A stretch of 50,855 nucleotides of DNA from Myxococcus sp. (lineage in GTDB: Bacteria > Myxococcota > Myxococcia > Myxococcales > Myxococcaceae): positions 1-50,855 of the forward strand of contig JACSRE010000246.1 of the NCBI GenBank assembly GCA_014879945.1, in the 5' to 3' direction. Every line of letters starts with the position of its first letter. Positions within the stretch are counted from its first letter, which is position 1. Below, in pieces: positions 28,613 to 50,629 of this stretch. The notes below the pieces were generated by a model. The model searched no databases, was not told the DNA's origin, and saw only the letters and a program-made list of their open reading frames with translations. The position numbers were made by a program, and so were the translations under genes.

Positions 28613-28641
28613 TCTGCTCGTCACGCAACCTGGAGGTGGTC

Positions 28642-31755: not shown

Positions 31756-31758
31756 GAC

Positions 31759-32625
31759 TCAGGCCCCCTCTTTCGGCGCCGAGACCTGCTCGGCCTCTTT
31801 GGCCAGCTGCTCCAGGTCGACGCCGTGCGCGTCCACGCCGCCCACCGGCGGCCCCCAGACGAAGTCACGCACCCCGGCCCCGAGGAACCGCAGGGCCATG
31901 GTGCCGAAGGTCACCGGCAGCGCGAGGGTCACCAGCCACTTCGGAATCGGGAGCGCGTCGAAGACCCCGACGCCCTCGCCCCCTCGCCACAGGGCGAACT
32001 CGTCGTGCAGCTGAACCACCGCGAGCCCCGCGAAGAAGGCGCAGAAGGCGAAGGTGACGACGCCTCCCACCAGCGAGAAGGTGCGGCCCATCTTCTCGTC
32101 GAGCTTCTTCTTCACCGTGTCGAGCACGATGTGGCGGCGCTGGCGGGTCGCGATCGACGCGCCCAGCATGCCGCTCCAGAGCATGAGGCCGAGCGCGAAC
32201 TTCTGGGCGCCCGGAATGCTCGATGGGAACAGCGCGAGCAGCCCTTGAATGAAGCCCGCGAGGCCGACCCAGAGGCCCAGCCCGACGGCGATCGACAGGC
32301 CCGCCCCCGGCGAGGCGGTGTTGAGCCGCTCCGCCTTGATCGACCGAGCGGAGTGCACCGCCAGCATGGTGAAGAGCAGCGATCCGATGGTGAACAGCCA
32401 GGGCCCCACCGTCTCGATGACGAACTGCCTCGTCTCGGCTGAGGGGCTCGGCATCAACGCGAGCAGCAGGGTCGACGTCTTCGAGATCGGTCGCGAGAAC
32501 GTACGCTGCGCCACGTCGAGCGCCACCAGCACGGTCATCAACGAGAGCGTGACGAGCAACAGCACCCGCTCCACGGCGAGCACGGCGTCGTCGAGCTTGT
32601 CGATCGTCTTGCGGAGCGATTCCAC
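31759..32625 (-). CDS. dctQ: TRAP transporter small permease DctQ, extended
   Basis: A 288-residue membrane protein with about five or six hydrophobic segments. The TRAP small-subunit (DctQ) signature region is RRHIVLDTVKKKLDEKMGRTFSL, preceded by a membrane helix carrying LGLMLWSGMLGASIATRQ. Usual DctQ proteins have about 160-190 residues and four helices, so there is an N-terminal extension, including VLLLVTLSLMTVLVALDVAQRTF, typical of larger DctQ forms. GTG 32625 is chosen for GGAGG seven bases upstream; ATG 32661 is the alternative. It lies between dctP (98 bp) and dctM (3 bp). Confidence 0.88.
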   Translation of the reverse strand: MESLRKTIDKLDDAVLAVERVLLLVTLSLMTVLVALDVAQRTFSRPISKTSTLLLALMPSPSAETRQFVIETVGPWLFTIGSLLFTMLAVHSARSIKAERLNTASPGAGLSIAVGLGLWVGLAGFIQGLLALFPSSIPGAQKFALGLMLWSGMLGASIATRQRRHIVLDTVKKKLDEKMGRTFSLVGGVVTFAFCAFFAGLAVVQLHDEFALWRGGEGVGVFDALPIPKWLVTLALPVTFGTMALRFLGAGVRDFVWGPPVGGVDAHGVDLEQLAKEAEQVSAPKEGA

Positions 32626-32669
32626 GATTCGGCCTCCACGGCCAGGGCGATTGGGTTTCAAACGACGAC

Positions 32670-32698
32670 GCCGGCCGAGCAGCGGGGGCTCGACCGGC
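32670..32698 (-). terminator. Hairpin between dctP and dctQ, possible partial terminator or mRNA stabiliser
   Basis: GCCGGCCGAGC (32670-32680) pairs with GCTCGACCGGC (32688-32698) with a single mismatch; an outer C-G pair (32669/32699) extends it. It begins about 25 bases after the dctP stop. No T-run follows on the minus strand. Hairpins in this position commonly raise binding-protein mRNA relative to permease mRNA. Confidence 0.45.
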
Positions 32699-32723
32699 GG
32701 CGCACCTCAGCGACGCAGCCGCG

Positions 32724-33746
32724 TCACTTCTTCCCGGCGGCAAAGTCCTTCTTCGCGGCGAGGATCGCGTTGAGCAGCGCTTTGTTGCTGGCGCTCTTCT
32801 TCGCGTAGATGTCCCACACCGGGCGGGCCTTGTCCTGCCAGGCTTTGGTCTGCTCCGGCGTCAGCTTGCAGACGGTCTTCTTGGCCGCGGTGAAGTTCTC
32901 GAGCAGCGGCTCGGTGAGGGCGCGCACCCCCGCGATGCCCGAGCGCTCGTCGGTGCGAACCAAGAGGAGCTTCTTCAGGTCCTCGGGCTGGGCGTCGAAG
33001 ACCACCTTCGACATCACCACCAGGCCCGGCTGGTAGATGTGGCGCGTGTACGTGTAGTGCGAGACGCCCTTGTACCAGCTGGTCGCCTGCGAGAGCAGCG
33101 GGCCGTTGGAGTAGCCGTCGACGGTGCCCGTCTGGAGCGCGCCGAGCACCTCGGGCGTCGACATCTCGACCGGCGAGGCGCCGAAGGCCTTGTACGTCTC
33201 CATGTGCACGTACGACTCCTGCGAGCGCATCTTCAGGCCCTTCAGGTCATCGGGCTTCTCGACGCACTTCCCCTTGATGCCGTAGCCGTGCCAGCCGTTC
33301 TCGCCCCACATCACCATCACGAAGCCCTTGGCCTCGAGCAGCTTGGTGACCTCGGGGCGGATCTTGTCGAGCACGTAGTCGGCCTCGGCGTCGGTCGCGT
33401 ACAGGTAGGGCAGCTCGATGCCGGCCAGCTCGGGCACGAAGGTCGCGAGCGCGCCCGCCGAGCCGCCGAAGAGGCCGATGTTCCCCTTCTGGGTCTCTTC
33501 CACCATCTCCTTCTCGCCGCCCAGCTTTCCGCCGAGGAACAGCTTGAGCTTGAGGCGCTTGCCCGAGTCGGTCTCGAGCCGCGCCTTCACGCCCTCGAGC
33601 CAGTCAGACCAGGGCGTGCCTTCGGGCGCGACCGAGCCCACCTTGAGCACGAGCACCGCGCCCCCGTCGGGGAGCGTGGGGCCCTCAGCGAACGCCGGAG
33701 CAGCGAGGAGCACGGCGCAGACGACGACAGCGAACACACGATTCAA
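32724..33746 (-). CDS. dctP: TRAP transporter periplasmic substrate-binding protein DctP
   Basis: A 340-residue DctP-type binding protein. Signal peptide about 1-20 (NRVFAVVVCAVLLAAPAFAEG), then the family fold: LKVGSVAPEGTPWSDWLEGVKARLE, GNIGLFGGSAG, LKGLKMRSQESYVHMETYKAFGASPVEMSTPEVLGALQTGTVDGYSN (the conserved ligand-contacting region with Arg and the TGxVDG loop). TTG 33746 is used because it directly precedes the signal peptide behind GGAGG; in-frame starts further up would place a basic leader before the signal peptide. The ligand cannot be inferred. It is followed by dctQ and dctM and preceded by a tatT-type gene. Confidence 0.93.
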   Translation of the reverse strand: MNRVFAVVVCAVLLAAPAFAEGPTLPDGGAVLVLKVGSVAPEGTPWSDWLEGVKARLETDSGKRLKLKLFLGGKLGGEKEMVEETQKGNIGLFGGSAGALATFVPELAGIELPYLYATDAEADYVLDKIRPEVTKLLEAKGFVMVMWGENGWHGYGIKGKCVEKPDDLKGLKMRSQESYVHMETYKAFGASPVEMSTPEVLGALQTGTVDGYSNGPLLSQATSWYKGVSHYTYTRHIYQPGLVVMSKVVFDAQPEDLKKLLLVRTDERSGIAGVRALTEPLLENFTAAKKTVCKLTPEQTKAWQDKARPVWDIYAKKSASNKALLNAILAAKKDFAAGKK

Positions 33747-33861
33747 GAGGCCTCCAGAGGCAGGACGAACGCGGTCCCGCGGGGGTGGTGGAAGGAAACA
33801 GGACCTGCGGGAGACGGCGCGCCCACGCCGAGCTTCACGGGGCGCGGCCCTCACCCGCGCG

Positions 33862-34737
33862 TCAGAACTTCTCGTCGATCTGCGAGAGCAGCTTCTTGGC
33901 CTTCTCCTGCTCGAGCAGGTTCTCGGCCTCGATCTCGGGCTCCGCCGACGCGCTCGCCGCCACCACGTCCTTCAAGAGCTTCTCGAAGGTCGCCTTGTCC
34001 TGGCGCTTGACGCAGAGGTAGTCGGCCCAGAGCACCTTGGTGCCGAGGTAGTTGGGCGCGAGCGCCACGGCCTTCTTGAAGTTCTCTTCGCTCTTGTCGA
34101 GCGAGCCGCCGGCGAGGCCCGCGGTGAGGGCCTCGTAGCCGCCGAGGTACCGCCAGGGCGCCGCGTAGAAGTACGTCTCGTCCATCGACTTCACGTGGTC
34201 GATGGTGGCCTTGATGTCGTCCTTGTAGCGAAGCCGCGTCGCGAAGCCCTTGGCGGCCGCCCACTTCCCGAGGTTCGAGGCGTACCAGTACATGGCGGCG
34301 ATCGACTCTTTCGGGGCCTTCACGATCGACTCGGCGTGCGTCTTGCCCTCGGCCATCGACTTCGCGAACTCGGGGGCCGACAGCTTGAGCGACTTGGTCG
34401 CCCAGTCGAGCCCCTTCTGGTAGGCCTCGTCGCGCTTGTCGTTCTTCTCTTCGAACGAATAGCGCTCTCCGGCCAGGTACCAGGCGCGCGACAGCTTGGC
34501 GTAGAGATCGGCGTCGGCAGCGCCAGCGGCGAGGGCCTCCCACTTCGCGATGGCCTCCATGTGCTTGGCGGCGTCTTTGCGGGCGGCCCACAGCGCGTCG
34601 GCGTCACCCGCCGCGGCGGCGTCGACGGTACCCGAGGCCGCGGTCACCTTCTCGTCCCACTTGGCGGCGTGCTGCGTCGCGCAGCCAGCCGTCGCAAGGC
34701 CCACCAGCACGGCGGCGCTCGTCATGATTCGCGTCAT
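33862..34737 (-). CDS. tatT: TatT-type TPR lipoprotein (TRAP transporter T-component)
   Basis: A 291-residue lipoprotein with lipobox-like ATAGC (Cys-19) and an all-helical body of TPR-like repeats (AKLSRAWYLAGERYSFEEKNDKRDEAYQKGLDWATKSLKL; SEENFKKAVALAPNYLGTKVLWADYLCVKRQDKATFEKLL). This matches the TRAP T-component family first studied as Treponema TatT, which forms a complex with its TRAP binding protein and may pass hydrophobic ligands through a central pore. The position directly before dctP supports a TPAT-type system. ATG 34737 follows GGAG by six bases. Confidence 0.85.
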   Translation of the reverse strand: MTRIMTSAAVLVGLATAGCATQHAAKWDEKVTAASGTVDAAAAGDADALWAARKDAAKHMEAIAKWEALAAGAADADLYAKLSRAWYLAGERYSFEEKNDKRDEAYQKGLDWATKSLKLSAPEFAKSMAEGKTHAESIVKAPKESIAAMYWYASNLGKWAAAKGFATRLRYKDDIKATIDHVKSMDETYFYAAPWRYLGGYEALTAGLAGGSLDKSEENFKKAVALAPNYLGTKVLWADYLCVKRQDKATFEKLLKDVVAASASAEPEIEAENLLEQEKAKKLLSQIDEKF

Positions 34738-34849
34738 TGTTGCTCCTGAGAGAGGTCGAACAGCGAGGGGTTGAAGACGAGGCTTCCTACCGGCTGGGGT
34801 TGGGGTGTCTAGCGGCGGATCAGAAGACATTCTGGAATGACGCGTTTCG

Positions 34850-35464
34850 TCACTCCTGGTGGCCGCGGCTCCCGGAGCGGAACTCGAGGAGCCTGAAGAG
34901 CCAGTCGTCGGGGCCGCGCACGGCCACCTTGCCGATGTTCGCGGCGTAGTAGTGGGTGTGCGGCGCGCTCCCGTCGAGGCCGGTCTCGAGCACCGCGAGG
35001 CAGTGGTCCACGGTGATGCCGTTGGGCAGCTCGACCTGCGCGTCGAGCGCCAGCACCTCGTACTGGGCGAGATCTCGGGTGCCCTTCTCGAGCGACGCGG
35101 GCGCCTGCCAGCGGGTGCCACGGGTCATCACCGCAGGGAGCACGACGACCTCACCGTCGGCGCGGGCGCCGGCGCGCTCGAGCCACTGGCCTTCCTTGAC
35201 GCGCCAGGTTCCGCTGCCCGACTTCTTGCCCAGGGAGTACGAGAACGACGCCTTCCAGTCGACGAAGCTGTTGATCGTGACCCGGCCCTTGCCACCGGCC
35301 TGCAGCTGGTACGTCCACGCCGCCCCAGACTTCTGAATGAAGTACTCGGCCCCGAGCCGGGTGGCCTCGGACGTCGCGGTCGCGGGTTGGCGCGCCGTCG
35401 GCGGCTCGGTCGCGGCGGCGAGTGCAGACGACAGGAGCGCGACGACGAGAACGCGACGATGCAC
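34850..35464 (-). CDS. Secreted protein of unknown function
   Basis: A 204-residue protein with a signal peptide (about 1-19, LVVALLSSALAAAT). The mature part is beta-rich and carries strands such as AWTYQLQAGGKGRVTINSF, KASFSYSLGKKSGSGTW, YEVLALDAQVELPNGITVDHCLAVLETG and IGKVAVRGPDDWLFRLLEF. One cysteine is present. I recognise no family. It lies between a FIST-domain gene (41 bp upstream) and tatT (112 bp downstream) in the same orientation, so it may be part of the same uptake or sensing unit. Confidence 0.8.
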   Translation of the reverse strand: MHRRVLVVALLSSALAAATEPPTARQPATATSEATRLGAEYFIQKSGAAWTYQLQAGGKGRVTINSFVDWKASFSYSLGKKSGSGTWRVKEGQWLERAGARADGEVVVLPAVMTRGTRWQAPASLEKGTRDLAQYEVLALDAQVELPNGITVDHCLAVLETGLDGSAPHTHYYAANIGKVAVRGPDDWLFRLLEFRSGSRGHQE

Positions 35465-37167: not shown

Positions 37168-37263
37168 TGCCGCAACACGCGCGCCCCGTGAAGTCGTGGC
37201 CCGCTGACGTCGCTCCCGGAATGACTGGGCTGGCGTGCGCCTTGCTGTAGCGTGCCGGCGCGC

Positions 37264-40200
37264 ATGAGCCCGACACTCCTCCTCCCGTGGTTGGTCGTGC
37301 AGGCCGCGTCGCTCAGCCAGACTTCGGTGCCAGCGAGCGGCCGGCACGAAACGTTGCTGACCCTCGACGCGCCCGCCGCGGTCCACCTGTCGGCGCGCAG
37401 CGGCAGCGGCACCTCGTGCGAGCTCATCGACCGCGTGCGTGGCCCCTTCGCGCGCGCCGGCGCCGTCGGCCGGACCAACTGCGAGCTCGACCTGCTGCTC
37501 GACGCGGGGCAGTACAAGGTGCGCGTCGAGTCGCCTGCCCGAGGCAAAGGCCAGGTCACCCTCTCGGTCACGGCCTTCGCGGAGCGAAACCCCGCCCCGG
37601 TGCAGCTCGCCAACGGCGCGGCCGTGGAGGTCACCCTCAAGCCGATGGAGCAGGCCTCGTTCTGGCTCCCCATGCCGACCAGGGGCGTCCCCTACGTGCG
37701 CGTCTCGGGGCGCAACGCCGGCGACGTGCGGCTGTGGCGCAACGGCGAGTGGCTCGAGCCGCTCAGCCTGCGCCGGGCCACCGTCACCAACACCCCGGGC
37801 CACCCGATGCACGAGTGGTGGCTCGACCAGACGCTCGAGGCCGGCGACTACCAGTTGGTGGTGTACGGGCGCGACGCCGTCACCGTCACCGGCTCGACCC
37901 AGGACGACTCGCTCACCGTCGAGCGGGGCTTCCGGCCCGGCCCGGCGGAACGGCAGGTCTCGTTCACCCTGCCCGTCTCGGGGGTGCTGACGCTCGAGCT
38001 CCCGCGCACGCCGACGGCCGCCTCCGTCGCGCTCGACGCCAGCCCCGAGGCGCCGGTGCAGCTCCAGCTCGCCGACGTCGCGGCGGGCGCGGCGCTGTCC
38101 TTCGGCGCGAGCTGTACGATCGCCAGGGGCGCCCTGGCGCCTGAGTGCGCCGCGCGCAGCTTCGCCACGCCCGACCGCCGCGTGCTGCTGCTGCGAGGCC
38201 CGAGAGGCACCAGGGGGAGCGTGGAGTGGGCGGCGGCGGTGAACACCGACCTCGGCTGGCTGACGTCGTGGCGAGGTGGCTCCTACGGGGCTCCGGCCAC
38301 CAACTTCACCTTCTCCACCCGCATGTCGGGCAGGGTGATCGTCGCCACCCACGATCTGCCCGTCGACACCGACGCTGCGCCGCTGGGGTGTCAGCTCGAG
38401 CGCTCCGACTCTGCCGCCACCACCGTCATCGGCCGTTCGATGACGAAGCTCGGCGAGGGCGAGGCGCTCGAGAGCGACTTCAACTACGACGAAGGCGGCG
38501 CGCTGGTGTGGTTCGAGGTGACGGCCGCCAACAAGTACCGCGTGCGCACCGAGGGCGGCCGCAAGAGCCGCTGCGAGGTCTACCGCTTCAAGTCCGACGG
38601 CACGCTCGAGCGCCTCACCCAGTCGAAGGCCGACGACGCGCCCGGGTGCGACCAGGTGCTCGCGCTCGGCAAGGGCGAGTACCAGCTGCAGCTGTTCGGC
38701 GGCGTGTCAGGCGTCGAGAAGCTCGTCATTCGCGAAGACTCGAAGCGCGAGCTGAAGAAGGCGGCGGCGCGCAGCACCTGCCAGCTCCCGCCCGCCGACC
38801 TCACGCCGGGCCGCTACCGCCTCCTCCTCACCCGCAGCGGCAACCTCACCGCGCGCGGGGTGACGCTGACGGAGCTGCCGGTGGACCCGAGCACGCCGGT
38901 GCACCTGAGCCTCGAGCCGAGACAGACGCTGACGCTCCCGCTGGCGCGCGGCGGCGCGTTCGTCGTGCGCTCGTCGGGCGGCGCGAAGTTCGGCTGCCAG
39001 CTCCAGGGGGCCAGCGCGAGCGCGACGCGCTCGGAGTGCGCGGTGCCGAGCCCCTCAGCAGGCGACACCCTCACCCTGTCGAACCCCGGCGACGCCCCGG
39101 TTCAGGTGACGCTGTTCAAGCCGGTGCCCACGCCCACTCCCGGTGCGCTCACCTCGTACAGCCCCACGCTCAAGCCCCTGCCGAGGCTCGCGGCGGAGCA
39201 GCCGTCATGGTTCGACTTCGAGCGCGGCCAGTCGAACGCGGCCGTCTTCGAGGTGGACACACCCGGCCTCTACAACGTGACGACGCTGGGGCTGCTCTCC
39301 ACCGCATGCCGCTTGCGCACGCCGGTCGTCGAGCTCGTCGCGCAGAACGAAGGCGGTGGCCGCGGCCGCAACTGCCTCATCCAGACGTACCTCCAGAAGG
39401 GCCGCTACCTGCTCAGCGCCACCACGCGCGGGGCGAGCAGGGGCCGCGGCGCCCTCTTCCTGCTCAAGAAGCCGGCGAAGGCCGCCACCGGGTTGTCGGG
39501 TGAGGGCGAGGCCTTCTTCCGCGTCGACGCCAATGAGCTGCTCCAGCAGACGCTCGTCGTCTCGAAGCCGGGCGAGTACCGCCTGGGCACCACCGCGCAG
39601 GGCGCGAGCCTGCTCTGTCGGCTCGACGACACCGACGGCTGGCCCATCGAGCCGGTGCCTTCGCCCTGCGTAGGCACGCGCACCCTCGCGGCCGGCAGCT
39701 GGCTGTGGACGCAGCTGCCGCTGACGGTCGAGTCGATGCGGCGCACCAGGCTGGAGCGGGTGCGCGAGCCCGTGGTGCTCCGGGGCAACAAGCCGCACCC
39801 GGTGCAGGCCTTCACCTGGTACGACGCCGAGCTCGGCAGTGACGGGAAAGACGAGTTCACCTTCACGCTCGAGGGCGAGGCCACCGTCGACGTGGTGCTG
39901 ACCCGGGGCATGCAGGGCCGCCTGTACCGGCTCGACAAGAACCAGCCTCCGAAGGCGGTCGAGGTCATCGCGCCGCAGGGCTCGGGGTACGAGTCGGTCG
40001 GCGCCGACGAGCGCGAGGGCTGCGGGGACGACTGCGGAGGCGAGGGCGACGCAGAGGCTGGCGGCGAGGGTGAAGGCGACTTCGAGGGCGGTGAGGCGCC
40101 GGTGGTCGCGACGGCGCCGAGCGGCCCGGCGATGCGCGCGGCCCCGCCTCCCCCCAGCGGCGCGAGGGTCACCCTGAGCGCCGGCAGCTACAAGCTCGTC

Positions 40201-42516
40201 ACCGAGCACAGCAAGGGCGACGTGGGCATCGCGTACAAGCTGCACTTCGGGAGCGCCGTGCTGCTGCCCGGCATGACGCGCACGCTCCCCGTGCCCACCA
40301 CCATGCCGCTCACGGTGCCGCGCGACGGCACGCTGCGGCTGCGCACCGAAGGCGAGGCCGACGTGCGCTGCCGGCTCTTCGACGACAAGCGCAGGCTGGT
40401 GCTCGAGGGCAGCGAGAACGGCGCCGACTGGAACTGCGCCCTGGCCGAGCCGGTGACGAAGGGCCGGTACACGCTGGTGCTCGAGAGCGAGACCCAGCTG
40501 GCCGGCGAGACGACCGTGAGCGTGAGCCTGCCGCCGGTCGAGGACCGCGGCGCCTTCGTCGACGGCAAGACGCTGCCGCTGGCCTCGTCGGTGGTGCAGC
40601 TGACGGTGCCACCCGGCGACGCGGTGCAGGAGCTCTCGGTGAAGGCGGTCGGCAAGACGCCGTTCTCGTGCGCCGTCGTGGGCCCGGGCGGCGTGGCGAG
40701 CCGCCGCTCTCGCGTCACCGACTGCTCGACGCTGGTGCTGCCGAGGCAGGAGCCGTGGACGCTTCGCCTGTGGACGACCGACGGCTCGGCCTCGGTCTCG
40801 ACGGCCCTCAAGGCGCGCGCGCTGACGACGTCGGGCCGCGAGCTGGGCTCCAGCCAGGCGCTCGCCACCACCATCACACGGCCCGGGCGCTACCAGACCT
40901 CGCCCCAGGCCCTCTGCCTGCGTGGCAGGAGCACCGGCGTCTTCGAGGCCTGTGGACCCGAGGTGTCGCTCGACGTGGGCCCGGTGGTGTTCGCGGGCCT
41001 GGGCGCCCGGCCGATCCCCGTGCCGCTCGAGGAGCTGCGCTTCACCGCCTCGAAGACGCCCTCGGTGTTCGAGCTGCGCCGCGACCCGCACCTGCAGACG
41101 GTGACGGCCTCCCAGCCCTCGCTCTTCCTCCTCTCGGCGGTGTCGGGTTGGGCCGAGGCCGCCCCGCCTTCGTGCGCGTTCGACGGCGCCGGCGCGCTCC
41201 GAGAGCGGCGCGAGGCCGCGTGCTTCGCGGTCAGCCGCGTGGGCACCGAGGCGATGGCCCGGCTCTGGGCGCCCAGCGACGCGGCGGTGCGCGCCGACGT
41301 CGTTCGTCGCGAGGTGGCGGTGCCCTCGAAGGCCGAGGCGCTCACGCCGGGCAGACGGCGCGTCTCGTTCTCGTCGGTGGGCGCGTTCTCGCTGCCCGCG
41401 TCGAGCCGGTCGCGGGTCGAGGCGACGCTTCCCAGCGACACCTGGGGCGTACTGTTGGATGACGGCGGCAACGCGGTGGAGCTGTGCGCGCCGGCGACCG
41501 AGCTGCGCCGCTGCGTGGTGTCGGGCCACGGTGGCCGGCTCGTGCTGGTGGGCGGCGAGGGCCAGGCCGACCTCAGCACCGTGCTGCTCGAGACCGCGCC
41601 GACGTCGATCAACTTCACGGGCCTCTACGAGGCCGCGCCCCGCGCGCCGGGCACCGTGCTGTTGACCATTCCCCCCGCTGACGGCGAGCGCGAGGTGGTG
41701 GTCGAGGGCGCGCTGCGGTGCACGCTGGTGCTCGCCTCAGGGGAGCGGGTGATCGCGTGCCGAACGAAGCTCCCCGCGAGGTCGAGCGCCGAGCTGCACC
41801 TCGAGCACGAGCTCGGCGCGCTGCGCGCCATGGTGCACACGCCGGGGCGCGAGAAGTGGGCGCGGCTGGGCCTCGAGCTCCCTTTGGTGGCGGGGCCCTC
41901 TCTGGCGCCGGCCGTCGCCGTGCCGCTCCAGCAGGGGCGCGTCGACCGGACCCTGGTGGTGTCGGAGCGCAGCGTGCTGCGCGTCGCCTCGGAGGCGGGG
42001 GTCTGCGGCCTCTTCCGCGGCAACGATCTGCTCGCCGTCGACGGCGCCGACACCGGCTGTGAGCTGGTGCGGGTGGTCGAGCCAGGCGCCTACCGCCTGC
42101 TGGTGCGGCCGTTCGCCGGCCGCGCGCCCGGGGCCGCGAGCCTTCGCTGGCTGGCCGAGCCAGTAACGGCCCTGGCCGAGGGCATCGGCGAAGAGACGTG
42201 GCTGGCGCCCGGAGAGGTCCGCCTCTTCACCTTCGACACCACCGCGAAGGGCCGCGTCGGCTTCGGCGTGCAGGCGCCTCGGGATGATCTCGAGTGCGCC
42301 GTCTTCAACGACGGCCACCTGGCGCTGGGCGATGGCTGCCACCAATACCTGACGCTCGAGAAGGGCCGCTACCTGCTGACGGTGCGCAACCCGAACCGCG
42401 CCGGCGCGAGCCCCATCGCCATCAAGCCCGTGCTGCTGGGGCTCTCGGGGGAGCGCAACGACGTTCCGCCCGAGTACCTGCAGGACTTCTTCGGCCGCGT
42501 GGGAATGACGCCATGA
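37264..42516 (+). CDS. Giant secreted cysteine-pair repeat protein, first gene of an A2M-PbpC operon
   Basis: A 1750-residue protein from ATG 37264 with signal peptide SPTLLLPWLVVQAASLSQ; GTG 37252 is an alternative. The mature chain is made of about 14 divergent beta-sandwich-like units of roughly 100-130 residues. Each typically carries two cysteines 10-25 residues apart followed by a strand of the form L..G.Y.L.V, e.g. CRLFDDKRRL...NCALAEPVTKGRYTLVLES, CGLFRGNDLLAVDGADTGC...PGAYRLLVRP and CAVFNDGHLALGDGC...KGRYLLTVRN. This resembles bacterial pre-peptidase C-terminal (PPC) domains with an added disulfide. An acidic Gly-rich insert (GCGDDCGGEGDAEAGGEGEG) lies near residues 920-945. No catalytic motif is seen. 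The TGA overlaps the A2M ATG, so it is coupled to A2M and PbpC; a structural partner or protease bait is plausible. Confidence 0.85.
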   Translation: MSPTLLLPWLVVQAASLSQTSVPASGRHETLLTLDAPAAVHLSARSGSGTSCELIDRVRGPFARAGAVGRTNCELDLLLDAGQYKVRVESPARGKGQVTLSVTAFAERNPAPVQLANGAAVEVTLKPMEQASFWLPMPTRGVPYVRVSGRNAGDVRLWRNGEWLEPLSLRRATVTNTPGHPMHEWWLDQTLEAGDYQLVVYGRDAVTVTGSTQDDSLTVERGFRPGPAERQVSFTLPVSGVLTLELPRTPTAASVALDASPEAPVQLQLADVAAGAALSFGASCTIARGALAPECAARSFATPDRRVLLLRGPRGTRGSVEWAAAVNTDLGWLTSWRGGSYGAPATNFTFSTRMSGRVIVATHDLPVDTDAAPLGCQLERSDSAATTVIGRSMTKLGEGEALESDFNYDEGGALVWFEVTAANKYRVRTEGGRKSRCEVYRFKSDGTLERLTQSKADDAPGCDQVLALGKGEYQLQLFGGVSGVEKLVIREDSKRELKKAAARSTCQLPPADLTPGRYRLLLTRSGNLTARGVTLTELPVDPSTPVHLSLEPRQTLTLPLARGGAFVVRSSGGAKFGCQLQGASASATRSECAVPSPSAGDTLTLSNPGDAPVQVTLFKPVPTPTPGALTSYSPTLKPLPRLAAEQPSWFDFERGQSNAAVFEVDTPGLYNVTTLGLLSTACRLRTPVVELVAQNEGGGRGRNCLIQTYLQKGRYLLSATTRGASRGRGALFLLKKPAKAATGLSGEGEAFFRVDANELLQQTLVVSKPGEYRLGTTAQGASLLCRLDDTDGWPIEPVPSPCVGTRTLAAGSWLWTQLPLTVESMRRTRLERVREPVVLRGNKPHPVQAFTWYDAELGSDGKDEFTFTLEGEATVDVVLTRGMQGRLYRLDKNQPPKAVEVIAPQGSGYESVGADEREGCGDDCGGEGDAEAGGEGEGDFEGGEAPVVATAPSGPAMRAAPPPPSGARVTLSAGSYKLVTEHSKGDVGIAYKLHFGSAVLLPGMTRTLPVPTTMPLTVPRDGTLRLRTEGEADVRCRLFDDKRRLVLEGSENGADWNCALAEPVTKGRYTLVLESETQLAGETTVSVSLPPVEDRGAFVDGKTLPLASSVVQLTVPPGDAVQELSVKAVGKTPFSCAVVGPGGVASRRSRVTDCSTLVLPRQEPWTLRLWTTDGSASVSTALKARALTTSGRELGSSQALATTITRPGRYQTSPQALCLRGRSTGVFEACGPEVSLDVGPVVFAGLGARPIPVPLEELRFTASKTPSVFELRRDPHLQTVTASQPSLFLLSAVSGWAEAAPPSCAFDGAGALRERREAACFAVSRVGTEAMARLWAPSDAAVRADVVRREVAVPSKAEALTPGRRRVSFSSVGAFSLPASSRSRVEATLPSDTWGVLLDDGGNAVELCAPATELRRCVVSGHGGRLVLVGGEGQADLSTVLLETAPTSINFTGLYEAAPRAPGTVLLTIPPADGEREVVVEGALRCTLVLASGERVIACRTKLPARSSAELHLEHELGALRAMVHTPGREKWARLGLELPLVAGPSLAPAVAVPLQQGRVDRTLVVSERSVLRVASEAGVCGLFRGNDLLAVDGADTGCELVRVVEPGAYRLLVRPFAGRAPGAASLRWLAEPVTALAEGIGEETWLAPGEVRLFTFDTTAKGRVGFGVQAPRDDLECAVFNDGHLALGDGCHQYLTLEKGRYLLTVRNPNRAGASPIAIKPVLLGLSGERNDVPPEYLQDFFGRVGMTP

Positions 42517-45500
42517 CGCCGACCACCACCGCGCACCGGTTCCACGCCATGACGCTTCGCCACCTCGCGCTGTCCTGCCTGCTCCTCTCGACCGCCGCGA
42601 GCGCCCAGTACACCGCCGCCGACGTCGGCCAGCGCCCGCTCAGCGGCGGCGTCTCGGTGCTGCCCGAGACCTTCTTGCGCGGGTACGACCCGGTGACGGT
42701 CTACTTCGACGCCGACCAGGTGTCGGCGAAGGGGCCGGCCGACGACGGCCCGAAGTTCCTCTCGTTCGCGCCCGCGTGGCCCGGCGCGTACACCTGGGTC
42801 GATCAACGCACGCTGCAGTTCCGCCCCGCCGAGCCGTGGCCTGCCTTGGCCCGCTTCGCCGTGAAGGCGCGTGGGGCGACGAAGGTGCTCACCACCATGA
42901 TGGCGCCCCCTTCCGCGATGGCGCCGGCGGCGGGCAGCGAAGGGCTGCGGCCGTTCCGGGTGGTGACGCTCACCTTCCCGCAGGCGCTCCCGCCGGCGTC
43001 GCTCAAGCGCATGCTGTCGCTCGAGATTCGTGATCTGCCCGGCCTCGCCGACAGCCCGCGCAGGAAGGTGCAGTCGTTCTCGCTCGCGGCGCTGCCGCGG
43101 GCGTCGCAGCGCGATCCCTCCAGCTGGGCGCTCACCCTCGAAGACGACGTGCCCGAAGGCAAGCAGCTGGTCGTCTCGGTCAGCCTGGCGCTGGGCACCG
43201 AGGGCACCACGCTGTGGACGGGCCGCGTGTCGACCCGAACGCCGTTCACCCTGCAGAGCGTGCAGTGCGGCAACGCGTCGTTCCCGCTGGTCGGCGGCGC
43301 CTCGACGCCGAGAGATCTCGCGCTCGGGTGCGGCAACCGCGGCGATCTGCCGCAGCTCGTCTTCTCGGCCCAGGTGGCCGACCTCACCCTCACCTCGTTG
43401 CGCAAGCTGGTTCACCTCGAGCCGTCGGTGCCCGACCTGCGCTTCACACCCTACGGAGAGCGGGTGCAGCTCCAGGGCAAGTTCGTGCCCGACACGCTCT
43501 ACAAGCTGACCATCGGCCCGGCCCCGATTCGCGACGACGCGGGCCGTGCGCTGCGCGACGTGAAGCCCGCCGACGTCTACTTCCACCTCGGGTGGAAGGC
43601 GTCGTTCCTGCGCTTCACCCAGGCGACCGCCATCGTCGAGGCGAAGGGCCCGCGCATGCTGCCGGTGCAGGGGTACGGGGAGCCGCGGGCCGACGTGCGC
43701 GTCTACCGCGTCGATCCGCTGCACAGCGGGCTGTGGCCGTTCCCCTCGTCGCCCGTGGTGGTGGACGAGCAGAGCGCGCCGCCGTTCCCGGGTGAAGAGC
43801 CGGCGACGCCGCCCGTGCCCGGCGCCATCGACGCGCGCACGCTGCAGCAGCACCTGCGCCTGCTGGGCAGCCCGCTGGTGTCTCGAATCGTCGACCTCCC
43901 GCTCGGTGACAAGGCCAACACGACGAGCTTCGGGCTCGACCTCAAGGCGCTGGTCGACCCCCGCCCGGGCACCTACCTGGTGGGCCTGCGCCGGCTGACC
44001 GGCCGGCCCGAGCGCGCCTACGTGCGGGTGCAGATCTCCAACCTCACCGTCACCAGCGTCGAAGAGACCGACAAGGCGGTGCTCTACGTCCGCGCGCTGG
44101 ACACGGGTGACGGCGTGCGCGGCGCCACGGTTCGCGTCGAGGGCACGCACGCCGAGACGGGCGCGCCGGTCTCGGAGGAGCGCACCAGCGACGCCGACGG
44201 GCGGGTGGTGCTGACGCCGCGCACGGGGTGGAGCACCATCACCCGCGTCTGGGTGAAGAACGGCGACGACGTGCTGGTGCTCGACCCGCGCGAGTCGCTC
44301 CCCTCGTTCGCCAACAACCACTGGTCGAGCTACGGCAGCTGGCTCAGCTGGCTGTTGACCTCGAGCGTGCCACCGCCGCCCAACGACACCACGCTCGGCT
44401 TCGTCTTCAGCGAGCGCCCCATCTACAAGCCCGGCGAGCCGGTGTTCCTCAAGGCCTACGTGCGGCGAAGAGAGAGCGGCGGGCTACGGGTGCCCTCGGC
44501 GCTCGGCGAGTACAAGCTGCGCGTGCGCGGGCCCGACGGCACCGAGTACCCCGTCACCAGCTCCAGCACGGCGCTCGGCGCGCTCGCGGCGACCTTCAAG
44601 GAAGAGGGCGTGCCGACCGGGGACTTCTCGGCCGAGCTGGTGCACGCGCCGCCGCGGGGCGCGGCCACGGTCATCTCCACGCGGAGCTTCAAGATCGAGG
44701 CGTACCGGGTGCCGACCTTCGAGGTGCAGCTGTCGGGCGGCCCGCGCGTGCGCAACGACGCCCCGTTCAAGGTGAAGGCGGTGGCGCGCTACTACGCGGG
44801 CGGCAACGTCGCGAACCAGCCGATCGCCTGGAGCGTCACCCAGCGGCCCTGGGTGTGGACGCCGAAGGGCCTGGCCGGCTTCCTCTTCGCGTCGTCGGCG
44901 CAGTTCGCGCGCCCGCAGAGCCAACGCTCGCCAGGCGTCACCTCGCAACAAGCTGAGCTCGACGACAGCGGCGCGGCCGAGCTCACCACCAACCCCCAGC
45001 TCGACCTCGACGGCGCCGGCCGGGTGTACCGCTTCGAGGCGACCGTCACCGGGCCCGACGATCAGCCCGTCACCACCGCCACCGAGGTGAAGGCGCTGCC
45101 CCCGTTCGTCCTCGGGCTCAAGGTGCCTCGCTACCTCGAGAAGGCCACCGAGCTGAAGACCGAGCTCGTCGCGGTGGGCATCGACGACAAGCCCCTCGAG
45201 GGCCAGGAGGTGCGCGTGCGCCTGCTGCGCCGGGTGTGGCACTCCACGCTCCGCGAGACGAGCTTCGCGACCGGCAAGGCGAAGTACCAGACCGAGCAGG
45301 AGGATCTGCAGGTGGCCGAGAAGACGCTGAAGTCGCTGAGCGGGCCGCTGGCGCTTGTGTTCCCCATCAAGGACTCGGGCATCTACGTCGTCGAGCTCTT
45401 CGCGCGCGACAAGCTGGGGCGGGTGCAGACGCTGTCGGCCGATCTCTACGTGGGCGGCACCACCCCGCTGTCGTGGCAGAAGTCGCGCGACGGCGTCTTC

Positions 45501-48254
45501 GAGGTGAAGCCCGACAAGAAGTCGTACGCGCCGGGCGAGGTGGCGCACCTCGTCGTGCAGAGCCCCTACGCCACCGCGCGCGCGCTCGCCGTCGTCGAGG
45601 ACCCGACGGGCAACCGCTACCTGTGGCGAGACGTGCAGGGCTCCCGGGTGGTGATCGACGTGCCCATCACCGACCGGCACGTGCCCAACCTGCCGGTGCA
45701 CGTGGTGCTCATGCGCGGCCGCATCGGCGAGGGGAAGACCGATGACTCCCGCTACAAACCGGCGACCGCCGCCAGCACCCTCGAGCTCGAGGTCGAGCCG
45801 GTGAAGAACCAGGTGATGGTGACGGTGGCGCACCCCGAGGTCGCGCGGCCCGGCACCAGGCACGACTTCACCATCAGCCTCACCGACGAGGCGAAGCGCC
45901 CCATCGGCGGCGAGGTGACGCTGTGGCTGGTCGACGAGGCCGTGCTGTCGCTCGCCAAAGAGGCGACCCTCGACCCGCTGTCGGAGCTGATTCGCCGCAA
46001 CGCCCGGACGGTGAGCGTGCGCGACTCCCGCAACCTGGTGGTCGGCCGCGTCACCGAGCTCGAGGAGGACCCGGGCGGCGACGGCGGGGACGAAGACTCC
46101 AGGGGCAGCAAGCGGCTGGTCCGCAAGGAGTTCAAGACCGTGCCCTACTACGCGGCCACGCTGACGGTGCCGGCGAGCGGCACGCTGGTGGTGCCCATTC
46201 AGCTCTCGGACGACCTCACCAACTTCCGGGTGCGGGCGGTGGCGGTCTCGGGGGCGACGCGCTTTGGCCACAAGCAGTCCACCCTGCGCGTGCGCCTGCC
46301 GGTGCTGGTGCAGCCCCAGCTGCCGCGGCTGGTGCGGGTGAGCGACTCGTTCTGGCCTGGCGCGGTGGCGCGCGTCGTCGAGGGCCCCGATGGCCCGGCG
46401 AGCGTCGACATCTCGGTCTCGGGCGCCGTCGAGGGCAAGCGCACGCTGAGCGAGCGCGTCGAGCTCAAGTCCACGAAGGCCCAGTCGGTGCTGACGCCGG
46501 TCACCGTCAAGGCCGCGCCGATGGGCACGCCGTCGGTCGTCACCGTGCGCGTGGACGTGACGCGGCTGTCGGACAAGGCCGGCGACGCCTTCGAGGTGAA
46601 GCTGCCGTTGCTGCCCGACCGCAACGTCGAGCGCGCCGCCAGCCTGGTGACGCTGCAGCCCGGCCCCAACGTCCTCAAGCCCTTCTCGGAGCCCGCGCGG
46701 CCCGGCACCGCCACCCAGTCGTACGTCTTCACCAACCAGCCCGGCGTGCTCGAGCTCGCCTCGAGCCTCGAGTACCTCTCGGCCTACCCGCACGGGTGCC
46801 TCGAGCAGCGCATGAGCCAGGTGTACCCGGACCTGGTGCTGGGCTCGCTCCTGAAGAAGCTCGAGCTCGACACCCGCTTCACGCCCCAGGTGCAGGCCAA
46901 CACCCGCAAGCTGCTCGAGGAGCTCGCGCAGCACCAGGACGCCTCGGGCTTCCTCGGCTACTGGCCGGGGTCGCAGGGCAACGTGCAGCTGACCGCCGCG
47001 GGGGTGGAGTTCATGACGATGGCGAAGAAGGCCGGCGTCAACGTCGACGAGAAGGTGCGCACCCGCGCCGTCGACGGCCTCAAGCGCGTGCTGCGAAAGG
47101 ACTTCAACGGGCTGTGGAGCGACTACCGCTTCAACCAGCAGACCGCGGCGCTCCGGGCCCTGGCGCGCGTGGGCGACCTCGACGACAACTACGCCGCCGA
47201 GCTCTTCTACGGCCGCGCTTCGATGGACTCGACGGCGGTGGCCGACCTCACCTCGGCCATGGCCGAGCGCCCCGGCGTCTTCGCGTCGAACCTGGGCACC
47301 CTCAAGGGTGAGCTGTGGGACGAGCTGGTCTTCAAGCTCGTCAAGGGCGCCAGGGTGTTCGACCGCCTGCGCCGGGATCGCGCGAGCTGGTCTGGGCTGT
47401 ACCTGGGCAGCTCCACCAGCGCGGTGGCTGCGGTCTGGGAGGCGCTGCTCCGCGTCGACCCCTCGAACGCGCAGCACACGTTGATGCGCGACGCCCTCCT
47501 CGCGAAGGCCAGCGCGGGCGCGGGCTTCGGCTCGACCTACGACAACCGCCGGGCGATCTCGGCCTTCGCGCTGTACCTCGAGAGGGCGCAGACGTCGCAG
47601 GGCCGCACCACCGTCACCCTGAGCGGGCTGCCCGACGTGGTGCTCGACGACGCGAAGAAGGCGGGCCGGCGCGTCATCGACGCCGAGCAGGTGCCGGCGG
47701 TGACCGTCACGGGCGGCCCCGTCGGCGCGCGGCTGCAGGTGAAGTACCTGCCGCTCCAGCCCGGCGACCGGGCCGACGCGAAGAAAGAGGGCCTCATCGT
47801 CAGCCGCAGCCTCACCCGCTACCCGGCCGATGGGAGCGCCGCGGTGAACGTCGACGACAGCGCCGGCGCGACCCTCTCGGTGCCCCTGGGAGAGGTCCTC
47901 GAGGTGCACGCGCAGCTGACGACCGACGAGCCGCGCCAGCACGTGGCCTTCGTGGTGCCGTTCGCCGCGGGCCTCGAGCCGCTCAACCCCAACCTCGAGA
48001 CCTCGGGGAGCGACGCGCGCCCCTCGCAGGCCGACTCGCTGACGCCCACCGCGGTGCAGCGGCTCGACGGCGAGGTGCGCTACGCCTTCACCGAGCTGCC
48101 GCGCGGCACGCACACCTTCCACTTCCGGGTGCGGGCCTCGAGCGAGGGCAGCTTCGTGCACCCACCGCCGTTCGCCGAGCTGATGTACCGCGAAGAGGTG
48201 CGCGGCCGGGGCGTGGGCACGCGCGTCATCGTCACGGGGACTCGGCAGCAGTGA
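42513..48254 (+). CDS. Bacterial alpha-2-macroglobulin (thioester type)
   Basis: A 1913-residue alpha-2-macroglobulin of the YfhM/ECAM class, a periplasmic trap that captures attacking proteases. Signal peptide ends near STAASAQ; no lipobox is present, unlike E. coli ECAM. Features in order: N-terminal MG domains, the MG2-like SERPIYKPGEPVFLKAYVRRR (about 636-656), the A2M domain with LWLVDEAVLSLA (about 1137-1148) and NFRVRAVAVSGATRFG, and the thioester YPHGCLEQRMSQ, Cys-1429 to Gln-1432, followed by the helical thioester domain (about 1440-1690) and a C-terminal MG-like end. ATG 42513 overlaps the previous stop (ATGA); an internal ATG at 42549 would begin at the signal peptide. The stop overlaps the pbpC GTG. 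Confidence 0.95.
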   Translation: MTPTTTAHRFHAMTLRHLALSCLLLSTAASAQYTAADVGQRPLSGGVSVLPETFLRGYDPVTVYFDADQVSAKGPADDGPKFLSFAPAWPGAYTWVDQRTLQFRPAEPWPALARFAVKARGATKVLTTMMAPPSAMAPAAGSEGLRPFRVVTLTFPQALPPASLKRMLSLEIRDLPGLADSPRRKVQSFSLAALPRASQRDPSSWALTLEDDVPEGKQLVVSVSLALGTEGTTLWTGRVSTRTPFTLQSVQCGNASFPLVGGASTPRDLALGCGNRGDLPQLVFSAQVADLTLTSLRKLVHLEPSVPDLRFTPYGERVQLQGKFVPDTLYKLTIGPAPIRDDAGRALRDVKPADVYFHLGWKASFLRFTQATAIVEAKGPRMLPVQGYGEPRADVRVYRVDPLHSGLWPFPSSPVVVDEQSAPPFPGEEPATPPVPGAIDARTLQQHLRLLGSPLVSRIVDLPLGDKANTTSFGLDLKALVDPRPGTYLVGLRRLTGRPERAYVRVQISNLTVTSVEETDKAVLYVRALDTGDGVRGATVRVEGTHAETGAPVSEERTSDADGRVVLTPRTGWSTITRVWVKNGDDVLVLDPRESLPSFANNHWSSYGSWLSWLLTSSVPPPPNDTTLGFVFSERPIYKPGEPVFLKAYVRRRESGGLRVPSALGEYKLRVRGPDGTEYPVTSSSTALGALAATFKEEGVPTGDFSAELVHAPPRGAATVISTRSFKIEAYRVPTFEVQLSGGPRVRNDAPFKVKAVARYYAGGNVANQPIAWSVTQRPWVWTPKGLAGFLFASSAQFARPQSQRSPGVTSQQAELDDSGAAELTTNPQLDLDGAGRVYRFEATVTGPDDQPVTTATEVKALPPFVLGLKVPRYLEKATELKTELVAVGIDDKPLEGQEVRVRLLRRVWHSTLRETSFATGKAKYQTEQEDLQVAEKTLKSLSGPLALVFPIKDSGIYVVELFARDKLGRVQTLSADLYVGGTTPLSWQKSRDGVFEVKPDKKSYAPGEVAHLVVQSPYATARALAVVEDPTGNRYLWRDVQGSRVVIDVPITDRHVPNLPVHVVLMRGRIGEGKTDDSRYKPATAASTLELEVEPVKNQVMVTVAHPEVARPGTRHDFTISLTDEAKRPIGGEVTLWLVDEAVLSLAKEATLDPLSELIRRNARTVSVRDSRNLVVGRVTELEEDPGGDGGDEDSRGSKRLVRKEFKTVPYYAATLTVPASGTLVVPIQLSDDLTNFRVRAVAVSGATRFGHKQSTLRVRLPVLVQPQLPRLVRVSDSFWPGAVARVVEGPDGPASVDISVSGAVEGKRTLSERVELKSTKAQSVLTPVTVKAAPMGTPSVVTVRVDVTRLSDKAGDAFEVKLPLLPDRNVERAASLVTLQPGPNVLKPFSEPARPGTATQSYVFTNQPGVLELASSLEYLSAYPHGCLEQRMSQVYPDLVLGSLLKKLELDTRFTPQVQANTRKLLEELAQHQDASGFLGYWPGSQGNVQLTAAGVEFMTMAKKAGVNVDEKVRTRAVDGLKRVLRKDFNGLWSDYRFNQQTAALRALARVGDLDDNYAAELFYGRASMDSTAVADLTSAMAERPGVFASNLGTLKGELWDELVFKLVKGARVFDRLRRDRASWSGLYLGSSTSAVAAVWEALLRVDPSNAQHTLMRDALLAKASAGAGFGSTYDNRRAISAFALYLERAQTSQGRTTVTLSGLPDVVLDDAKKAGRRVIDAEQVPAVTVTGGPVGARLQVKYLPLQPGDRADAKKEGLIVSRSLTRYPADGSAAVNVDDSAGATLSVPLGEVLEVHAQLTTDEPRQHVAFVVPFAAGLEPLNPNLETSGSDARPSQADSLTPTAVQRLDGEVRYAFTELPRGTHTFHFRVRASSEGSFVHPPPFAELMYREEVRGRGVGTRVIVTGTRQQ

Positions 48255-50629
48255 GGGCCTGGCGCGCGCGGTGGCGAAGGCCGTCACGGCGCGCGGGGCT
48301 GTGGGTGGCGGCGTGCCTGGTGGCCGTCGGCGCCACCGCCTTCTGGCGCTCGCTCGATGACGCCCTGCTTGAGCAGGCGCCCTCGCAGGTGCTGCTCGAT
48401 CGCCGCGGGCGCTTCCTCGGCGAGCGGCCCGGGTCGCGCGAGGCCTATGGGTTCTGGCCGCTCCCGCCGACGCTCCCGACGAAGGTGGTGGTGACGACGC
48501 TCGAGACCGAGGACCGTGGCTACTTCGAGCACCAGGGCATCGCGTGGCGCTCGGTGCTGCGCGCGGCCTGGCAGAACGTCACCAACGGGCGCGTCATCTC
48601 GGGGGCCAGCACCATCGCGATGCAGGTGGCGCGGCTGCAGCACCCCCGGGCGCGCACCCTGGCCGCGAAGCTCCACGAGGCGGCCGAGGCCCGGCTGTTG
48701 GTTCGCCGCCACGGCCACGACGCCGTGCTGCGCCAGTACCTCACCATCGCCCCGTACGGGAACCGCACCCACGGGGTCGCGCGCGCCGCCAACCTCTACT
48801 TCGACAAGCCCATCGACGATCTCTCGTGGCTCCAGGCGGCGTACCTGGCCGCGCTGCCGCAGCAGCCCAGCCGCATGTCACCGTGGACGGAGGCCGGCCA
48901 CACGCGGGCGCTCGAACGGGCCCGCCGCATTCTCACCCAACTGCACGCGCGAGGCGTCATCGGAGACGACGAGCTGCACGTCGCCCTCACCTCGTCGCTC
49001 TCGCTGGCGCGCCACCCCACCCGGCCGCCCGAGGCGATGCACGCCCTGCTCGCCTGGAGCCGCCACCTGCCGGGCGATCGCGTCATTCACCGCACCACCC
49101 TCGATCTCGAGGTGCAGCGGGCCGCCCACCGGGCGCTGACCGACAACCTCGCGAGGCTGCGCGGCGCCGGCGCGGGCAACACCGCCGGGCTGGTGGTGGA
49201 GCTGCCCTCGGGCGACGTGCTCGCCTACGTGGGCAGCGCCGACTACTTCGACGCCGAGCACCGCGGCAGCATCGACTACCTCGCCACCAGGCGCTCCCCC
49301 GGCTCGTCGCTCAAGCCGTTCATCTACGCGATGGCCCTGGAGGACGGCACCCACACCACGGCGTCCGAGCTGCCCGACACCCCGGTCGAGTTCGCGACGG
49401 CCAACGGCGGCCGCTACGCACCCGAGAACATCACCCACACCTTCCTCGGGCCGATGCTGCTGCGGCAGGCGCTGGGCAACTCCCGCAACATCCCCGCGCT
49501 GCGCGTGCTGTCCGAGGTGGGGGTCGATCGGGTCGCGCAGCGGCTCGAGCGCGGCGGCGTCAAGCAGGTGAAGTACGACCCATCGGCGTACGGGCTGACG
49601 CTGGCCATCGGCTCGCTGCACGTCACCCCGCTCGAGCTCGCCGGGCTCTACGCCGCGCTCGCCAACAAGGGCGTCACGGTGCCGCTGCGCCACTTCAGCG
49701 AAGCGCCGCCAGCCGAGGGGACGCGCCTGTTCGGCGAAGAGGCGGCGATGTTGATCTCGCACGTGCTCGCCGACCCCGAGGCGCGCCGGCCGGCGTTCCC
49801 CGCCTCGGGCCCGCTCGACTTCGACACGGCGGTCGCGGTGAAGACAGGCACCAGCCAGGGCTACCGCGACGCCTGGGCAGCCGCGTTCTCTGATCGGTTG
49901 CTGGTGGTGACCTGGGTGGGGAACCACGACTGGCGCCGCATGAACCTGGTGTCGGGCGCCGCCGCGGCGGCCCCGGCGGCCCACGCGATCGTCGAGCAGG
50001 TCAGCCCCGAGGTTCGGCCCTGGCAGGCGCCGTTGATGAGCGCCCCGCTGCCGGCGTCGTCGATCGCGCGTGGCGTCTGCGCCCTCTCGGGCCGGCTGCC
50101 GGGCCCGAGCTGCCCGAACGTGAAGACGGAGCACTTCGTGCGCGGCACCGAGCCGAGCGCGCCCTGCCCCTTCCACGCCGAGGTGCGGCTGGACCTTCGA
50201 ACGGGGCTCCTCGCGGGGCCCGGGTGCCCGAAGGCGGTGGTGGAGACGAAGCCGATGCTGGCGCTCCCCGTGCGCTACGCGTGGTGGGCCAGGCGCCAGC
50301 GGCTCGACGTCGCGCCGACGGTCGAGTCTCCCCTATGCCCGACGACGGACCCGAGTGTGCGGGCGGTGCGCATTCGTGAGCCCGCCCCGGCCTCGCGCTA
50401 CCTCTTCGACCCCGACACGCCGCGCGCGCTCTCGACGCTGCGCCTGTCGGCCGTGGTTCAACCCGCGACCGAAGAGGTGGTGTGGCTGGTCGATGGGGTG
50501 CCGGTGGCGCGGGTCGGGTACCCACACGAGGCCCGCTGGCCGGTCGAGCCGGGCCCGCACGTGATTCGCGCGGTGCTGGCGGGAGGGCGTGAGGCCAGCG
50601 CCCCGGTGCGCATCACCGTCGACGACTGA
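48251..50629 (+). CDS. pbpC: Penicillin-binding protein 1C (bifunctional glycosyltransferase/transpeptidase)
   Basis: A 792-residue class A PBP. A single N-terminal TM (about 16-32) is followed by the GT51 glycosyltransferase (ETEDRGYFEHQGIAWRS with the catalytic Glu; GASTIAMQVARL; APYGNRTHGVARAANLYF), a transpeptidase domain with SSLK (Ser-352, Lys-355), SRN (411-413) and KTGTS (Lys-531), and a C-terminal BiPBP_C domain of about 90 residues with LFDPDTPRALSTLRLSAVV. The combination of GT51, transpeptidase and BiPBP_C defines PbpC. The GTG start overlaps the A2M stop (GTGA). PbpC next to A2M is a well-known pairing, interpreted as wall repair linked to protease trapping. Confidence 0.96.
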   Translation: MRAWRARWRRPSRRAGLWVAACLVAVGATAFWRSLDDALLEQAPSQVLLDRRGRFLGERPGSREAYGFWPLPPTLPTKVVVTTLETEDRGYFEHQGIAWRSVLRAAWQNVTNGRVISGASTIAMQVARLQHPRARTLAAKLHEAAEARLLVRRHGHDAVLRQYLTIAPYGNRTHGVARAANLYFDKPIDDLSWLQAAYLAALPQQPSRMSPWTEAGHTRALERARRILTQLHARGVIGDDELHVALTSSLSLARHPTRPPEAMHALLAWSRHLPGDRVIHRTTLDLEVQRAAHRALTDNLARLRGAGAGNTAGLVVELPSGDVLAYVGSADYFDAEHRGSIDYLATRRSPGSSLKPFIYAMALEDGTHTTASELPDTPVEFATANGGRYAPENITHTFLGPMLLRQALGNSRNIPALRVLSEVGVDRVAQRLERGGVKQVKYDPSAYGLTLAIGSLHVTPLELAGLYAALANKGVTVPLRHFSEAPPAEGTRLFGEEAAMLISHVLADPEARRPAFPASGPLDFDTAVAVKTGTSQGYRDAWAAAFSDRLLVVTWVGNHDWRRMNLVSGAAAAAPAAHAIVEQVSPEVRPWQAPLMSAPLPASSIARGVCALSGRLPGPSCPNVKTEHFVRGTEPSAPCPFHAEVRLDLRTGLLAGPGCPKAVVETKPMLALPVRYAWWARRQRLDVAPTVESPLCPTTDPSVRAVRIREPAPASRYLFDPDTPRALSTLRLSAVVQPATEEVVWLVDGVPVARVGYPHEARWPVEPGPHVIRAVLAGGREASAPVRITVDD

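Follow-up and report, generated by a model that had tools for sequence, protein, structure and literature searches.

The locus described here raises the question of why a gene for a giant, cysteine-rich protein stands directly before the genes for an alpha-2-macroglobulin (A2M) and a penicillin-binding protein 1C (PbpC), and what such a protein could add to the pair. On the accepted view, type I bacterial A2Ms trap periplasmic proteases and PBP1c mends the wall (PMC5764988). In the 50,855-nucleotide stretch of Myxococcus sp. DNA that was analysed (the window), the last 13.4 kb carry three genes, all on the plus strand. The first encodes a presumably exported protein of 1750 aa, here called GCP for giant cysteine-pair protein (37264-42516, ATG start); the second, a type I A2M of 1913 aa with a Sec signal peptide without lipobox (42513-48254, ATG start); and the third, a PbpC of 792 aa (48251-50629, GTG start). 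The sequence-only reading had described an operon whose members overlap by ATGA at the GCP stop and A2M start (42513-42516) and by GTGA at the A2M stop and PbpC start (48251-48254), and sequence and junction comparison confirmed both overlaps and all three ORFs. No paper on such a third gene with A2M-PbpC was found in a literature search with limited coverage of subscription papers.

The two downstream genes can be assigned with some precision. The A2M scores above the Pfam cut-offs for bMG10, A2M_BRD, A2M, MG2 and bMG6 and carries the thioester motif CLEQ (46797-46808, plus strand) within PHGCLEQ (residues 1426-1432), a sequence found in 23 of the 24 A2M orthologues. The CxEQ thioester motif, the macroglobulin, bait-region and bMG10 domains and a pbpC gene directly downstream are features of type I A2Ms, for which a lipoprotein anchor is not a strict defining feature. 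PbpC reaches 500.3 bits against the TIGR02073 equivalog cut-off of 494.2 and has the Pfam domains Transgly, Transpeptidase and BiPBP_C. The remaining A2M orthologue (L059), from a genome of 2.7 Mb (G025), has SLEQ; there the triad is intact and the thioester Cys has become Ser, as in type II, so that GCP, which is retained despite this loss, does not depend strictly on the chemistry of the thioester. Two other A2Ms (L105 and L110) showed no CxEQ by pattern search.

The junction between GCP and A2M is strongly conserved. An in-frame A2M start lies exactly 4 bases back from the GCP stop in 22 of 24 orthologues and in six of seven further readable loci, which upholds the translational coupling claimed for the window, and the A2M signal peptide begins at this -4 codon in many orthologues. 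In the window A2M, a good signal peptide would likewise result from a start at the Met 12 codons downstream (M13), which leaves the overlap start likely but short of proven. The A2M-PbpC junction is less constant, lying at -4, at -11 or a few bases either side. From the coupling, a fixed ratio and probably a joint complex of the three proteins had been deduced; on the gene arrangement, both are no more than plausible.

The association of GCP with A2M and PbpC extends well beyond the window. Orthologues of GCP occur in 23 other genomes, some of the same genus, at 33%-79% identity, and in each of the 23 near orthologous loci that are long enough to tell, GCP comes directly before A2M-PbpC. The same order recurs in more distant families of Myxococcota, where GCP is 28%-44% and A2M 37%-60% identical to the best query used. 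When samples of 193-195 Myxococcota genomes, many of them metagenome-assembled, were searched (a 201-residue fragment alignment was used for GCP), GCP was present in 46 at E <= 1e-20 and the A2M orthologue in 46 at E <= 1e-150, with both in 45 (Fisher p ~1e-41, uncorrected for kinship). The two discordant genomes have simple explanations: in one (G153) the A2M runs into the contig start, and in the other (G188) a reduced A2M and PbpC do adjoin GCP. The latter locus (L115, on contig C136) consists of a less similar GCP-like gene, then an apparently much shortened A2M, then PbpC, and is possibly a reduced form of the triad. In a sample of 99 genomes of relatives, GCP and the A2M orthologue occur in the same 30 genomes. 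The GCP and A2M trees, to which the tree comparison was limited, have 19 of 24 splits in common and one strongly supported conflict.

Absence of the giant gene from the A2M-PbpC loci of close relatives had been named in advance as an outcome that would speak against a partnership. No such absence was found at orthologous loci, and locus order and co-occurrence together bear out a third partner tied to A2M and PbpC; paralogous pairs do lack it, as no GCP match was seen at any of 16 such pairs, whose A2Ms are about 24%-29% identical (in two cases the contig extends only a short way upstream). The paralogous A2Ms are only about 24%-32% identical to the triad A2M and form a separate sequence clade in the relatives' genomes. 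By eye, most paralogous A2Ms with a readable N-terminus have a lipobox-like Cys, and the triad A2M signal peptides, which end in AxA-Q, lack one. Another A2M, with CVEQ (L078, G000:C360), is encoded in the same genome as the window but unlinked to the triad, and no PbpC was detected adjoining it. Of the genes flanking the triad only a few are kept, and these among the closest relatives alone, so that GCP, A2M and PbpC behave as a unit of three. The other genes noted in the window include those for a creatininase-family protein (25708-27069, plus strand), a LysR-type regulator (28636-29532, plus strand), the TRAP transporter proteins DctM, DctQ and DctP (29986-33854, minus strand) and a lipoprotein-like protein that may be an accessory of this transporter (33862-35121, minus strand). 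Since GCP is hardly ever inherited apart from A2M, it probably functions as a component of one and the same machine for envelope defence.

The triad also appears to have a promoter of its own. The sequence TGGCGTGCGCCTTGCT (37231-37246, plus strand) is separated from the GCP start codon by 17 bases and fits the -24/-12 consensus TGGCACG-N4-TTGC(T/A) of sigma54, as used for Myxococcus xanthus (PMC7910581); its activity is predicted. Upstream of GCP, the pattern [TC]GG-N8-TTGC was found in 23 of 24 orthologues, where the expectation is 0.57, and the strict form TGGC-N7-TTGC in 17 of 24, where it is 0.11; expectations were computed from the background of the fetched loci. Both the distance of the motif to the start codon and the surrounding bases vary, and the motif thus appears to be conserved for itself. 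Similar sites precede several more distant GCP genes, and a sigma54-type motif was found for 2 of 19 paralogue A2Ms, in both cases inside the gene start. The neighbouring ORFs that were scanned included no recognisable sigma54 activator gene. The triad may be induced by envelope stress. An alternative GTG start of GCP lies 12 bp upstream (37252-37264) and would add MPAR, placing a basic residue in the signal peptide, and it would precede the predicted sigma54 transcription start (about 37257).

The GCP of the window has 32 Cys, of which two lie in a variable acidic loop and 30 at conserved positions, the latter forming 14 local pairs plus the lone C376 and C506. As many as 28 of these 30 positions are invariant in the 24 orthologues, even where identity falls to 33%. 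In two related genomes (L050 and L051), both members of the remaining pair, 1581/1599, have given way to Phe/Phe. In AlphaFold models, both Cys of each local pair lie in or next to successive predicted strands; this placement and the joint loss of 1581/1599 argue for 14 local cross-strand disulfides, to which C376-C506 would add a fifteenth that spans an inserted unit. Read from the predicted strand pattern, GCP would be a chain of about 17 small beta-sandwich units. The sequence-only reading had counted about 14 cysteine-pair units, and the 14 local pairs agree with that number, but profile comparison detects likeness among only about 8-9 units (u1, u2, u5, u7, u8, u10, u16, u17 and, weakly, u9). 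Most other units have the Cys pair and no internal homology detectable by this means, and a conserved Cys pair is missing from two stretches of about one unit each (residues 108-208 and 839-998).

The models, of residues 20-865 (pLDDT 88, pTM 0.81) and 840-1750 (pLDDT 82, pTM 0.55), are confident and nearly all beta, and as modelled, several units have the pre-peptidase C-terminal (PPC)/collagen-binding-domain fold, on the strength of the best units. The best-conserved unit (residues 638-735, with C682/C704 and an invariant GRGRNC motif; 39175-39468, plus strand) matches the ColG collagen-binding domain 1nqj at Z 13.2 and rmsd 2.0 over 92 residues, and the unit with C1036/C1058 (residues 1000-1097; 40261-40554, plus strand) matches it, through residues 160-250 of the second model, at Z 12.0 and rmsd 1.7 over 86 residues. 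Against the PPC domain of Bacillus anthracis collagenase (5sv5), the best units reach Z 12.5 and 12.0. The AF2 model of the unit with C437/C462 (residues 391-497; 38434-38754, plus strand) resembles botulinum HA70 D3 and the C-domain of the C. perfringens enterotoxin (Z ~11, rmsd 2.2-2.9, ~100 residues), and the C-terminal unit with C1678/C1692 (residues 1638-1732; 42175-42459, plus strand), through residues 790-889 of the second model, resembles the ColH collagen-binding domain (Z 11.2), PliG (Z 10.4) and p24 GOLD (Z 9-10). The p24/TMED GOLD domains, PliG, the DeCLIC N-terminal domain and the SID1 ectodomain have a similar beta-sandwich (Z 8-10), which is a resemblance of fold only. Kinship of GCP with A2M was considered and rejected, as Foldseek placed complement and A2M chains at rmsd of about 30 Å or more with low probability and single-unit PPC matches are far better. 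The only PDB sequence match for GCP (4nhx) falls on the acidic loop and was judged spurious.

Membership of the repeats in a named family with an unrelated role had likewise been set out beforehand as a counter-indication, and here the outcome is divided: units of GCP have the PPC/collagen-binding-domain fold in common, but no sequence family claims them. Pfam and NCBIfam searches gave no family for the window GCP, the PPC gathering score (PF04151) was not reached, and among the 24 orthologues a weak PPC match appeared in only two (best E 0.0057), among other weak scattered matches. At least two GCP units resemble PPC and clostridial collagen-binding domains in fold at Z 12-13, with rmsd 1.7-2.0 over ~90 residues for the collagen-binding domains, whereas the GCP units are 12%-17% identical to them, below Pfam cut-offs, and GCP is a long array with one Cys pair in most units and no protease in the chain. 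The fold, together with the appearance among its matches of PliG, a periplasmic lysozyme inhibitor, lends some weight to the view that GCP acts alone in the same response, as a periplasmic or wall-associated binder of peptidoglycan, glycans or collagen-like polymers. Its expression would then be tied to that of A2M and PbpC through the common promoter, and the three would form no complex. We consider this unlikely, though it is the best of the alternatives, because the near-absolute co-occurrence with A2M and the retained 4-base overlap exceed what co-regulation needs.

A second alternative arises from the one long disordered segment of the chain, a Gly/Glu/Asp-rich acidic loop at about residues 905-962 (39976-40149, plus strand; pLDDT < 40) within a unit without Cys. 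It had been proposed that GCP might be a bait for proteases. In that case it would be a large sacrificial substrate whose loop is cut by invading enzymes, which would protect other proteins or hand the protease over to A2M. The existence of such a loop and its acidic character in 23 of 24 orthologues fit the proposal; however, the loop is poor in Lys/Arg and in hydrophobic residues and is almost absent in one orthologue (L058), the remaining chain looks disulfide-stapled, which is the opposite of a good substrate, and A2M has a bait region of its own. We regard a decoy role as improbable.

The location of GCP bears on the last alternative. Its N-terminus begins with a hydrophobic segment read by eye as a presumed signal peptide (MSPTLLLPWLVVQAAS, 37264-37311, plus strand), and orthologue N-termini are likewise hydrophobic. 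The GCP signal peptides have no basic n-region, which leaves the export route unproven; a periplasmic location is what the sequence would suggest. On inspection of the GCP sequence by eye, no transmembrane segment, lipobox or sorting signal was evident, and GCP itself could therefore not easily be a membrane anchor; it would need PbpC or the wall to complete any tether. A place for GCP at the cell surface or in the extracellular matrix, where it would serve adhesion or predation and share no more than a genetic link with A2M-PbpC, is the least probable reading of all: although the fold matches include collagen- and host-binding domains and the Myxococcota are predators living on surfaces, no outer-membrane anchor or secretion signal was seen, and wherever the locus is intact, GCP stands beside genes for a wall synthase of the inner membrane and a periplasmic inhibitor.

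We therefore favor, with a probability of roughly 0.55, a three-gene, sigma54-controlled variant of A2M-PbpC envelope defence in which soluble GCP serves in the periplasm as the scaffold of an A2M that is not lipidated and connects it to PbpC or the wall. The triad A2M has no lipid anchor, unlike that of the paralogous pairs, and would be tethered by a protein partner instead. Under this model, the three proteins would be made on demand from the sigma54 promoter, and GCP would be exported to the periplasm and fold into about 17 beta-sandwich modules, most with a cross-strand disulfide. The resulting disulfide-hardened, protease-resistant scaffold would bind the co-translated A2M and hold it near PbpC and the peptidoglycan. 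A foreign protease that enters would cut the A2M bait region and be trapped via the thioester, while PbpC would repair the wall. The physical complex and the tether role of GCP are among the parts of this scheme that we infer. A bolder form of the proposal, somewhat short of even odds in our estimation, is that the triad is an undescribed three-protein envelope-defence machine of Myxococcota, in which a soluble thioester A2M and PbpC have a disulfide-stapled GCP of about 17 PPC-fold modules as their obligate structural partner, and which a sigma54 activator switches on under envelope attack.

GCP provides a concrete handle on how A2M and PbpC cooperate and on why they are linked. Its near-perfect co-occurrence with one A2M clade, the coupling of the genes and the coinciding loss of the lipid anchor predict a complex, a location and a regulator, and these predictions are testable in culturable myxobacteria.

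Two known systems invite comparison. The type I A2M-PbpC pairs, such as YfhM/PbpC of E. coli and Sa-A2M of Salmonella, resemble the triad in having a CxEQ A2M followed by PBP1C in one operon, whereas the triad has a large gene in first position, a non-lipoprotein A2M of a distinct clade and a sigma54-type promoter. In the Mag operon of Pseudomonas aeruginosa, MagA, MagB and MagF bind the type II A2M MagD 1:1, and the stability and membrane placement of MagD depend on its operon partner MagB (PMC5764988). The likeness lies in an A2M made with dedicated operon partners (MagD with MagA/B/C/E/F), but MagD has no thioester, PbpC is missing and the MagD-binding partners are of 26-60 kDa. The triad, with its thioester and PbpC, thus falls outside the type II A2M/Mag group, and no Mag-like gene was recognised in it. 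The Mag system nevertheless offers a precedent for an A2M held by a partner protein and not by a lipid, and together with the ordinary signal peptide of the triad A2M it makes GCP as an A2M partner the simplest model. Protein partners of A2Ms, so far known for type II (Mag), may thus exist for type I as well.
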